In this document: one piece after another, positions 3,168 to 6,329 of the stretch
Layout: the number at the start of each line of letters is the position of its first letter
How positions within the stretch are numbered: position 1 is the first letter of the stretch
Source: an uncultured Chthoniobacter sp.
Lineage (GTDB): Bacteria; Verrucomicrobiota; Verrucomicrobiia; Chthoniobacterales; Chthoniobacteraceae
NCBI GenBank assembly: GCA_903874975.1
Contig: CAIQUL010000011.1
Location: forward strand, 1 to 34,944
DNA: 34,944 nucleotides
Direction: 5' to 3'
The notes under the pieces: generated by a model
Told to the model about the DNA's origin: nothing
Seen by the model: only the letters and a program-made list of their open reading frames with translations
Database searches by the model: none
Program-made: the position numbers and the translations under genes

Positions 3168-4412
3168 TCACTCCGCGGGCCGGCGGAGTGCGGGGACATT
3201 GCCGAGCCAGGTGGTGGCCAGGCAGCCGATGGCGCCGACGGTGAAAATCTGCCGGGCGGTGCCCTGGTCGCTGAGCGGCACCAGATGCGCGAGGGCGGTG
3301 AGCGCCGCGCCGAGCAGGGTGACCGCGGCGACGGTGCCGAAGAGCCAGGTGCCGGGCCGGGAGCCATTGGTAAAGGTCATCGAGAGTGGAAAGGAGGCGG
3401 CGATCAGGCCGATGCCGAGGGTGACCACCGCGGGCCAGCCGAAGGCGAAGCTGGCGATGAGGAGCGCGAGGCCGGGACCGAGCGAGCCGCCGACCGCGGC
3501 GGCTTCCAGTTTCTCCCGCGGGCGGAGCGCGTAGCGGGCGAAGGAGTCGAAGAGCAGAAAGAAATTGCCGACGGGTTTGGCGACCCAGACCCAGAGGACG
3601 AAAAGCATGTAGAGCGCGACGAGGGCGTCGCCGCCGGGAATTTGACCCGCGAGTTTGACGCCGAAATAAAGGCCAATGATGACCGCCCAGCGCGCGCCGG
3701 AGCTGAGGCGCTGCATGAAAAAGCAGTAGCGCAGATAGGTGCGGTAGATCGGCGAGCGGGCGCGGAAGCTGTTGAGCAGGCCGTCGCGGGCGGATTCGAA
3801 GTCGGGGTCGAGGCGGAGGGCTTCGCGGAAGTGCGTCTCGGCGGCCCGGTGCTCGCCGCGCTGGAGGGCGGTCCAGCCAGCGTTGGCGTGGGTGAAGGGA
3901 TCCTCGGGATCGCGGGCGAGCATGCCGGCGAGGTGCGCGGCGTTTTCGGCATTCTTGTTTTGCAGGCGGAGCGCCTGGGCGAGTTGGTTGGCGGCGGCGG
4001 AGTTGTCGGCGTCGAGCGCGAGGGCCTGCCGGGCGGATTGCTCGGCGCGGGGCCATTGCTCGGTTTGCAGATGCGCCTGGGCCTCGGCCGTGAAGGCGCC
4101 AGCGTGCTGCGGATCGAGGCTCAGCGCCGTCTGCGCGGCGGCGAGACCGTCGCGCGGGCGGTCGAGGACGGAGAGGATGTAGCTGCGCAGGACGTGGTGG
4201 TCGGCGTCGTTGGGCTCCTTGGCGATGGCGCGGTCAATGGTCGCGAGCGCCTCGCGTTTTCGCTGCGGCTGGTGGAGTTGGCAGGCGGCGAGCTGGTGGA
4301 GGGCGAAGGCGTCGTTGGGCTCCTGCGCGAGCGCTTCGCGAAAGGCGTTTTCGGCATCGGCGTAGCGGCCGAGGTCTTTGAGCTGGAGGCCGCGGAGGAT
4401 TTCGGGAGGCAT
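3168..4412 (-). CDS. TPR protein with C-terminal multi-pass membrane domain
   Basis: The 414-residue protein starts MPPEILRGLQLKDLGRYADAE. The first ~225 residues are about six tetratricopeptide repeats, recognisable by phrases such as AENAFREALAQEPND, ALSLDPQHA and HFREALRLDPDF. The rest carries about six hydrophobic segments (first around WAVIIGLYFGVKLAG, last around IFTVGAIGCLATTWLG). The TPR part is presumably cytoplasmic and binds a protein partner, but no catalytic motif is seen. It is the last gene of a minus-strand series that begins with an AAA+ ATPase, which also has an N-terminal TPR region. The two may act together, but the S23 element lies between them. The start codon is only 2 bp from the end of that element's inverted repeat, and no Shine-Dalgarno sequence is visible there. 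Confidence 0.85.
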   Translation of the reverse strand: MPPEILRGLQLKDLGRYADAENAFREALAQEPNDAFALHQLAACQLHQPQRKREALATIDRAIAKEPNDADHHVLRSYILSVLDRPRDGLAAAQTALSLDPQHAGAFTAEAQAHLQTEQWPRAEQSARQALALDADNSAAANQLAQALRLQNKNAENAAHLAGMLARDPEDPFTHANAGWTALQRGEHRAAETHFREALRLDPDFESARDGLLNSFRARSPIYRTYLRYCFFMQRLSSGARWAVIIGLYFGVKLAGQIPGGDALVALYMLFVLWVWVAKPVGNFFLLFDSFARYALRPREKLEAAAVGGSLGPGLALLIASFAFGWPAVVTLGIGLIAASFPLSMTFTNGSRPGTWLFGTVAAVTLLGAALTALAHLVPLSDQGTARQIFTVGAIGCLATTWLGNVPALRRPAE

Positions 4413-4414
4413 GG

Positions 4415-4450
4415 GGAAATGACCGATGGAAAATGACCAATGACCAATGG
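4415..4450 (+). repeat. Left terminal inverted repeat of the S23 element
   Basis: The 36 bp begin with the outer motif GGAAATGACC and contain tandem 7-bp units AATGACC toward the inner end. The repeat matches the reverse complement of 4805-4840 at 31 of 36 positions. It starts 2 bp beyond the start codon of the TPR membrane gene (4410-4412) and ends exactly beside the stop codon of the S23 gene (4451-4453). Confidence 0.88.
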
Positions 4451-4798
4451 TCAGGCGCTGCGCGCTTTGCGGATGATGGTGGAGAAGATGGCTTTGAGTT
4501 GGCGGGTTTCTTCCAGAAGAGGGGTCATTGCTTCGGGTTTAGTTGTTCCGCTTTCGATCAGTAGTTCGAGCCAGTATTCGGTCTCGCTGAGTTCGCGCAG
4601 CGAGTCTCCCATTTTCGCGATGAACTCGGCCTTGGAACGTCCCTCGTCAGCCTCGCGATAATTTGCGCCCACCGATGTTGCCGAGCGCAGCACTTGTTTG
4701 CCCATGACCTGCGCGACCGTCGTCTTCGGAAGGCGCGAGTACAGGCGGATGACACGCAACGCGAAAGCCTTCGTCCTCTCCTTCAAATCCCGCTCCAT
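4451..4798 (-). CDS. Four-helix-bundle protein, 23S rRNA-intervening-sequence (S23) family
   Basis: The 115-residue protein is all-helical and fits the S23/IVP family (TIGR02436 type). The hallmark LRSATSVGANYREAD lies near residues 39-53, followed by FIAKMGDSLRELSET and YWLELLIES. Relatives are encoded inside intervening sequences of 23S rRNA, and the accessory protein Avd of diversity-generating retroelements shares the fold; Avd binds nucleic acid and the reverse transcriptase. No enzymatic motif is present. Start 4798 is chosen because GAGGGG lies 4 nt upstream. An in-frame ATG at 4820-4822 would add eight residues encoded mostly by the repeat. Inverted heptamer repeats flank it almost exactly. 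No reverse transcriptase, variable repeat or rRNA is in the window, so neither the DGR nor the rRNA context applies here. Confidence 0.88.
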   Translation of the reverse strand: MERDLKERTKAFALRVIRLYSRLPKTTVAQVMGKQVLRSATSVGANYREADEGRSKAEFIAKMGDSLRELSETEYWLELLIESGTTKPEAMTPLLEETRQLKAIFSTIIRKARSA

Positions 4799-4802
4799 TA
4801 TT

Positions 4803-4808
4803 CCCCTC
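4803..4808 (-). promoter_or_regulatory. Shine-Dalgarno site of the S23 gene, partly inside the right repeat
   Basis: GAGGGG on the minus strand lies 4 nt before ATG 4796-4798. It decides the start of the S23 gene. Four of its six bases belong to the inner end of the right inverted repeat, so pairing of the two repeats in RNA could partly mask the ribosome site. Confidence 0.5.
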
Positions 4809-4840
4809 TGGTCATTGGTCATTCTCCCTTGGTCATTTCC
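4805..4840 (-). repeat. Right terminal inverted repeat of the S23 element
   Basis: Read on the minus strand, the 36 bp begin with GGAAATGACC and carry the same AATGACC heptamers as the left repeat. The TGA stop of the AAA+ gene (4833-4835) lies in this outer motif. The TolQ-TolR junction shows the same arrangement, where the stop at 474-476 lies in GGAAATGACG. Confidence 0.88.
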
Positions 4841-6191
4841 TGATCCCCAGAAACTCCAGCACGTCGTCGTAGAAGCCGCTCTGGTTGGAATAGATTGCGT
4901 AGTTTTTTGCGCTCTCGAACCACGCTTTCGTCGAGGGCTTCACATCTTTCGCAGACTTCAGCAGGTCGTCGGTGCCGAGCGGGATGACGCGGCCTTCGTT
5001 CATGGCGCGGGCGAGGGAGCGCTCGATGGCGATGTCAAAAACGGCTTTCAAATCCGCGCCGGAGAAGTCGCGCGTCTTCTTCGCCACGGCGGCGGCGTCG
5101 AGCGCGTGCATGGGTTTGTTTTTGGCCATGACCTCGATGATGGAGCGGCGCGCGGGCTCGTCGGGCGGCGGGACGAAAAGGATGCGGTCGAAGCGGCCGG
5201 GCCGGCGGAAGGCGGGATCGAGATGCCACGGGGCGTTGGTCGCGCCGAGGATGAGCAGGCCGTCGTTGTCGCCGACGTTGCCGTCCATCTCGGCGAGGAA
5301 CTGGTTGATGAGCGTGCGGCCGGCGCTCTGTTTGAGGTCGTTGCGGTCGGCAGCCAGGGCGTCCACCTCGTCGAAAAAAAGCACCGCCGGCGCGTGGGTG
5401 CGGGCAAGCTCGAAAAGGGCGTGGAGGTTTTTTTCGGAGTTGCCGAGGTAGAGGTCGAGGATCTGATGGATGCCGATGGAGAGAAAGTTCGCCTTGATCT
5501 CCCCGGCGGTGGCGCGGCTGAGCAGGGTTTTGCCGCAGCCCGGCGGGCCGTAAAGCAGCACGCCGCCGCCGATTTTTTTGCCGTAAGCCTTGAAGAGCGC
5601 CGGGTTCTTCAGCGGGTGGATGATCTTCATCCGAATCTCCTCTTTCACGGACTCCATGCCGCCGATGTCGGCAAAGTTCAGCGTGGGCCGCTCGATGTCG
5701 GTGGGACCGACGGCGGGCTGTTCCTCTTTGTCACTTTCGGGCGTCCAGCCCTGGACCGTAACCTTTTCCGGCTCGGCGCGCGGTGGCTCGGCGTGGCCGC
5801 GACCGGTGAGTTCCTTTTCCAAACCGGCGTCGCGCAGCGTGGGGTCGAGGGCCAGCGCCTGGTCGTAGCAGGCTTGCGCGGCAGAGCGGTTGCCTTCGCC
5901 GGCGTGGAGCCGGGCAAGCAGCAGGTGCGCGGGCGCAAAGCCGGGGACGTCGGCGAGCAGCGACTCGATCCGCACCACGGCTTCGCTGGTTTTGCCGGTG
6001 AGGTGGAGCACGCGGGCGACGCCCACTTTGGCCTCCGGCCGCGCGGGATCGAGCCGCTGGACGCGCTCGAAAAGGGCGCGCGCCTCATCGATCGACCACT
6101 CGTCCAGGCAGGACTGGGCGAGGAGGAGGAGGAGCGGGACGTTTTCTGGAGAAACGGCCACGGCCTGGCGGAGTGGGTCGAGCTTGGACAT
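4833..6191 (-). CDS. AAA+ ATPase with N-terminal TPR region
   Basis: The 452-residue protein has TPR-like helices over residues 1-130, a charged linker rich in Pro and Glu, and one AAA+ module of the classical FtsH/CDC48/katanin type. Walker A is GPPGCGKT (215-222, Lys221). Walker B is VLFFDEVDAL, with Asp274 and Glu275. The second region of homology reads NAPWHLDPAFRRPGRFDR and supplies the arginine fingers. A helical lid with DFSGADLKAVFDIA follows. The module begins with LNFADIGGMESVKEEI, like the start of D-domains in CDC48-type unfoldases. No protease domain is fused. A role in remodelling protein complexes is likely; the target is unknown. ATG 6189-6191 is preferred over an upstream in-frame ATG at 6225-6227. 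The last codons AGG AAA TGA coincide with the end of the inverted repeat. Confidence 0.88.
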   Translation of the reverse strand: MSKLDPLRQAVAVSPENVPLLLLLAQSCLDEWSIDEARALFERVQRLDPARPEAKVGVARVLHLTGKTSEAVVRIESLLADVPGFAPAHLLLARLHAGEGNRSAAQACYDQALALDPTLRDAGLEKELTGRGHAEPPRAEPEKVTVQGWTPESDKEEQPAVGPTDIERPTLNFADIGGMESVKEEIRMKIIHPLKNPALFKAYGKKIGGGVLLYGPPGCGKTLLSRATAGEIKANFLSIGIHQILDLYLGNSEKNLHALFELARTHAPAVLFFDEVDALAADRNDLKQSAGRTLINQFLAEMDGNVGDNDGLLILGATNAPWHLDPAFRRPGRFDRILFVPPPDEPARRSIIEVMAKNKPMHALDAAAVAKKTRDFSGADLKAVFDIAIERSLARAMNEGRVIPLGTDDLLKSAKDVKPSTKAWFESAKNYAIYSNQSGFYDDVLEFLGIRK

Positions 6192-6329
6192 GGTCGGGAT
6201 TCTCCGGCGGCAGGCGAGGGGTGACAAGCGGGAGATTTTCGAGAAAATGGGCTATCATCGCGCGGCGAAAAAGCCGTATCTGATGGCACAGCCGCTGCTA
6301 GTTCCCAAATTGCTCAAACCATCTATTCC

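Follow-up and report, generated by a model that had tools for sequence, protein, structure and literature searches.

A probable non-autonomous insertion element: an S23/IVP gene looped between inverted heptamer arms at an operon junction of an uncultured Chthoniobacter sp.

The window analyzed here, the whole 34,944-nucleotide stretch of contig CAIQUL010000011.1 from an uncultured Chthoniobacter sp., carries on its minus strand an operon in which the genes for an AAA+ ATPase and a TPR protein are separated by a small S23/IVP gene enclosed by inverted repeats. A hairpin of similar build, with no open reading frame, lies elsewhere in the window.

4833 to 6227, minus strand: upstream host cistron, TPR + AAA+ ATPase (PF00004, E 2e-37), found together with the TPR gene, as orthologues, in 8 relatives
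4805 to 4847, minus strand: 5′ arm (upstream in the S23 sense), GGGATCAGGAAATGACCAAGGGAGAATGACCAATGACCA, containing the AAA+ stop and lying just ahead of the S23 Shine-Dalgarno site (repeat search, shuffles)
4451 to 4798, minus strand, with the open reading frame reaching to 4822: S23/IVP four-helix-bundle gene, 115 aa from its likely start (PF05635, TIGR02436 and AF2 fold; start predicted)
4408 to 4450, minus strand: 3′ arm (downstream of S23), TGGTCATTGGTCATTTTCCATCGGTCATTTCCCCATGCC, with the TPR start codon (4410-4412) in its outer end (repeat search, shuffles)
3168 to 4412, minus strand: downstream host cistron, TPR protein of 414 aa (TPR Pfams; orthologues lie directly behind the AAA+ gene where S23 is missing)
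380 to 467, no strand assigned: ORF-less hairpin of GAATGAC heptamers with a 41-nt loop, between two other genes, built like the arms of the S23 element (repeat analysis)

The inverted repeat was recovered exactly as a first-pass annotation of the sequence had described it, with 31 of 36 positions identical between 4415-4450 and 4805-4840, and could be extended to 4408-4446 and 4809-4847, where 33 of 39 positions match. Its arm score of 24.5 compares with a maximum of 13.5 in dinucleotide-shuffled flanks, and none of 2000 shuffles scored as high. Both arms are made of tandem heptamers (ATGACCA and TGGTCAT) and the S23 stop codon TGA (4451-4453) abuts the left arm, as had also been annotated, while the AAA+ stop TGA (4833-4835) lies inside the right arm, within its outer heptamer. 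The proposed identity of the enclosed gene was borne out by profile matches to PF05635 (72.5 bits) and TIGR02436 (93 bits), and the proposed four-helix bundle by the predicted S23 structure (AF2, pLDDT 93), which matches PDB entries 2rld and 2gsc and the Avd protein 4dwl; two solved S23 relatives have five chains each. Translation likely starts at the ATG at 4798 (MERDLKERTKAF..., 115 aa) rather than at the heptamer-internal ATG at 4822, because a Shine-Dalgarno-like AGAGGGG precedes the former. The unit contains no transposase, again as first annotated.

Comparison with relatives supports the earlier proposal that the unit was inserted into the operon. The insert sits at the ATGA stop/start junction of the AAA+ and TPR genes, which are conserved as a pair. 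In seven relatives (L017-L023) the stop of the first overlaps the start of the second or lies directly against it, and no S23 gene is present; one of the seven is a congener with an AAA+ protein 83% identical to that of the window. An eighth relative (L024, genome G035) carries an ORF-less heptamer hairpin at the same junction. Empty sites were found at two further junctions occupied in the window's genome. Between trpE and trpG, a 434-nt insert contrasts with a 9-nt gap in a congener with a 97% identical TrpE, and another congener (L211, genome G004) has an ORF-less TTAATCC hairpin there; the second further empty site is the pyruvate dehydrogenase E1-E2 junction. No target-site duplication was visible at the junctions compared, for which the relatives are too divergent to give base-exact ends. 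The trpE-trpG junction of another relative (L218, approximately 1415-1485) holds a hairpin of period nine, built from CGCAAAGGA units, which perhaps belongs to a separate hairpin family.

A search for further copies, with and without an open reading frame, had been proposed, and many were found. The window's genome encodes six PF05635 genes, of which the sixth looks degenerate, while the five intact ones all occupy tight junctions, namely trpE/trpG, the pyruvate dehydrogenase E1/E2 pair, two MoxR/DUF58 sites and the AAA+/TPR junction of the window, the flanking genes outside the window being named by sequence inspection. All five have inverted heptamer arms, with the heptamers differing between them (ATGACCA, GATGAAG, AGCATTT, AAATCCG and GTGATTG). 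Units some 430 nt long, 81-82% identical with their arms, were found between unrelated flanks when species of the same genus were compared (L279/L283 and L303/L305); such diverged between-species pairs were the only ones recovered, and the high-copy genomes searched yielded no element present in near-identical copies within one genome.

The association of S23 genes with inverted arms extends across phyla. With an arm score of 16 as threshold, arms were called at 159 of 244 usable S23/PF05635 loci (65%), compared with 10 of 3851 random segments (0.3%), in organisms that include Chloroflexota, Acidobacteria, Cyanobacteria, Proteobacteria, Nitrospira, Armatimonadetes and Bacteroidota. By the score used, roughly one fifth to one third of the S23 genes have no clear arms, possibly through erosion. 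Arms match within a locus specifically: at 73 loci of relatives the mean score was 22.2, falling to 9.2 when arms were swapped between loci. Self-match of the arms at a lag of seven nucleotides was 0.66-0.70 (control, 0.26), a signal that is not built in, as the arm alignment ignored period. An arm typically comprises about four to five tandem heptamers, the majority of the form GANNNNN when read inward, and the inward reading is purine-rich (GA over TC in 81 versus 9 elements). Each copy has its own 7-mer, common to both of its arms, a pattern also seen in Cyanobacteria, Chloroflexota, Acidobacteria, Bacteroidota and Proteobacteria, and up to 60% protein identity the arms of different copies show a similarity of just 0.15-0.24, with no terminal sequence common to all copies. 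In a 666-kb sample not selected for heptamers, which includes contigs of the window's genome known to carry S23 genes, every inverted heptamer pair enclosed either a geneless loop of 19-69 nt or an S23 gene in a loop of 358-373 nt. The ORF-less hairpins of like build are probably non-coding relatives of the S23 element, and S23 genes with inverted heptamer arms appear to form a class of small insertion elements that is widespread and undescribed. In genome G112, open reading frames of 228-261 aa contain two adjacent PF05635 matches (e.g. C12:7582-10081, C37:232-918, C74:6594-7283 and C77:18624-19331), which suggests tandem-duplicated S23 proteins.

Placement of these genes is strongly biased. 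Among 138 loci at which a simple self-trained codon score could identify both flanking genes, S23 was in the sense orientation relative to both neighbours at 104 and antisense to both at 9, and the stop codon of the upstream gene lies at the border of the 5′ arm, with a median offset of -3 nt. The heptamers themselves show no excess of all-frame stop codons over shuffled heptamers. On finished plasmids, S23 genes are found between annotated csx2 and cas1, DrmD and PglX, or helicase and N-6 methylase genes. At two loci (L314 and L321), from cyanobacterial and Chloroflexota plasmids, a DUF1156 gene, S23 and a Swt1-type HEPN gene follow in the same order, and this putative defence pair may carry the S23 insert along.

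S23 is itself under strong purifying selection (dN/dS 0.07-0.17, with several dS values near saturation), as would be expected if it were an ordinary, conserved operon gene and the heptamers incidental slippage repeats; heptamer repeats are common in bacteria (PMC4679880). Retention of a copy over time also fits such a gene. The first-pass annotation had set against its own proposal a pattern in which gene and repeats stay at one place in relatives, with no empty sites and no other copies; since empty sites and other copies exist, the window locus does not show it, but elsewhere part of it does occur, as an orthologous S23 gene is kept between gltB and gltD in four species of one genus. Several S23 elements persist at one site throughout a genus; some copies are for this reason old residents, and some may have been domesticated; in one of the four species the heptamer has been altered in both arms together. 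Against an ordinary host gene stand the empty sites, the related units at unrelated sites, and the shared junctions that hold S23 proteins just 25-46% alike, which are best read as separate insertions, along with the enrichment of arms at S23 loci over random segments. We regard this explanation as highly improbable.

The transcript is predicted to fold into a stem of 10+20 bp (z -5.2), and in the rRNA intervening sequence (IVS) of Coxiella burnetii an S23p gene is accompanied by a 28-bp stem and by tandem heptamers upstream of the open reading frame, at the RNase III site (PMC4990558), a published parallel that strengthens the likeness to rRNA IVSs drawn in the first-pass annotation. Together with the sense orientation within operons and the known cutting of S23-bearing IVSs of 23S rRNA by RNase III, these features could be accommodated by an IVS-like element residing in mRNA, whose arms would pair in the transcript and be cut by RNase III, freeing the S23 mRNA and separating the host cistrons. 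Arms maintained for pairing in the sense transcript should, however, show more G:U than A:C mismatches, and across 161 loci there was no such excess (176 G:U versus 210 A:C). The suggestion that an RNA stem keeps the arms matched was therefore not sustained; because the mismatches are not enriched in G:U, the arms look matched by a process acting on DNA. The transcript could nevertheless fold and may yet be cleaved. Moreover, none of the 359 fetched loci contains either of two conserved 23S motifs used to search for a 23S gene context, and the window has no Rfam match. An mRNA-resident element of this kind is accordingly a possibility that we entertain with some doubt.

At the DNA level, arms can be homogenized when inverted repeats switch templates, a process described in the literature (PMC8604942; PMC7202029), usually with shorter spacers than the approximately 360 nt found here (up to 70 nt in the cited yeast study, PMC8604942). 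At shared junctions with S23 proteins at least 60% alike, the two arms of an element had a similarity of 0.70, as against 0.53 for arms compared between species. Among pairs below 60% protein identity, likeness of the heptamers follows relatedness of the S23 proteins (Mantel r 0.27, p 0.001), a pattern that either common descent or arm recognition by S23 could produce.

No mobilizing enzyme was found, with reverse transcriptase and Y1_Tnp examined as candidates. The match of the S23 fold to Avd and to ribonucleoprotein structures of diversity-generating retroelements (DGRs), and again the sense orientation at transcribed junctions, would suit a retroelement in which an Avd-like S23 recruits a reverse transcriptase in trans and RNA is copied into new operon junctions. 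However, the window's genome (96% complete) contains no RVT_1 match, and over 57 genomes the number of reverse transcriptases is unrelated to that of S23 genes (rho -0.08), which leaves such a route unlikely. For Y1 (REP-associated) transposases, copy number does correlate with that of S23 after genome size is accounted for (partial r 0.51, uncorrected for shared ancestry), and a MITE-like hairpin mobilized by them in trans would agree with the lack of a visible target duplication, as far as relatives too divergent for base-exact ends can show it. Yet 20 Y1_Tnp genes were flanked by other, REP-like inverted repeats and none had a heptamer array within 700 bp, so that we hold mobilization by Y1 to be quite improbable. 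The flanks of the Y1 transposase genes (L343-L359) carry long REP-like inverted repeats (TAGCC...).

We therefore favor, as the probable though by no means certain reading, that the feature in the window is a non-autonomous insertion element of about 430 bp, belonging to a widespread class in which an S23/IVP gene is looped between inverted heptamer arms. Its arms would stay alike at the DNA level through slippage of the arrays and template switching between them. S23 may bind the arms or the hairpin that they form, which would account for the correlation between heptamer likeness and S23 relatedness. The element would ride in the transcript of the host operon, with S23 translated by re-initiation past the upstream stop, and would move by means of an enzyme supplied in trans. 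A bolder and distinctly tentative extension is that this is a mobile-element class of its own, the ends of which are known by a seven-nucleotide period and a short GA anchor instead of a fixed sequence; each copy could therefore rewrite both of its ends in concert and stay recognizable to a pentamer of the single S23 protein, and rRNA intervening sequences would be copies that landed in rRNA genes.

To our knowledge, no function is known for the S23/IVP proteins, although they are common and conserved. Their association with heptamer arms gives them an anatomy, an insertion rule (in sense, at operon stop codons) and a candidate binding partner, and concerted evolution of arms with a copy-specific word is unusual for any mobile element. 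It would also connect three puzzles, namely the rRNA intervening sequences, the heptamer hairpins of bacteria and the Avd fold. We found no paper in the open-licence literature that joins S23 genes to inverted heptamer arrays.

Heptameric tandem repeats of intergenic DNA are known in Cyanobacteria as STRRs. In other bacteria, TAACTGA repeats (PMC4679880) and Geobacter elements (PMC2700814) have been reported, and the accessible text of these papers describes no link to S23. To judge from that text, the arms described here resemble all three in having tandem seven-nucleotide units that are mostly intergenic and sometimes paired in inverse orientation; they differ from the TAACTGA and Geobacter repeats, as there described, in their tie to S23 and in matching within a copy while differing between copies. 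With transposons and MITEs the element shares empty sites and copies elsewhere, and with MITEs or REP elements served by a transposase in trans (RAYT) its small size, lack of a transposase, inverted ends, intergenic location and ORF-less forms. Unlike these, it ends in heptamer arrays that share no sequence across the family, and the repeats at Y1 genes are different. S23 shares the fold of the DGR protein Avd (4dwl, TM 0.72-0.81), but a DGR differs from this single-gene unit with inverted arms in its reverse transcriptase, which was not found in the window's genome. The element is also close in build to the 23S rRNA IVSs of Coxiella burnetii and Leptospira, in which an S23/IVP open reading frame is likewise looped by complementary ends in about 430 nt. 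In contrast to these, the unit in the window lies in a protein-coding operon (AAA+/TPR) and not inside a 23S rRNA helix, its heptamer varies from copy to copy, and it bears no sign of selected RNA pairing. An IVS-like origin of the window unit is nevertheless plausible, and the Coxiella rRNA IVS, for its part, looks like a member of the class that may have landed in rRNA.
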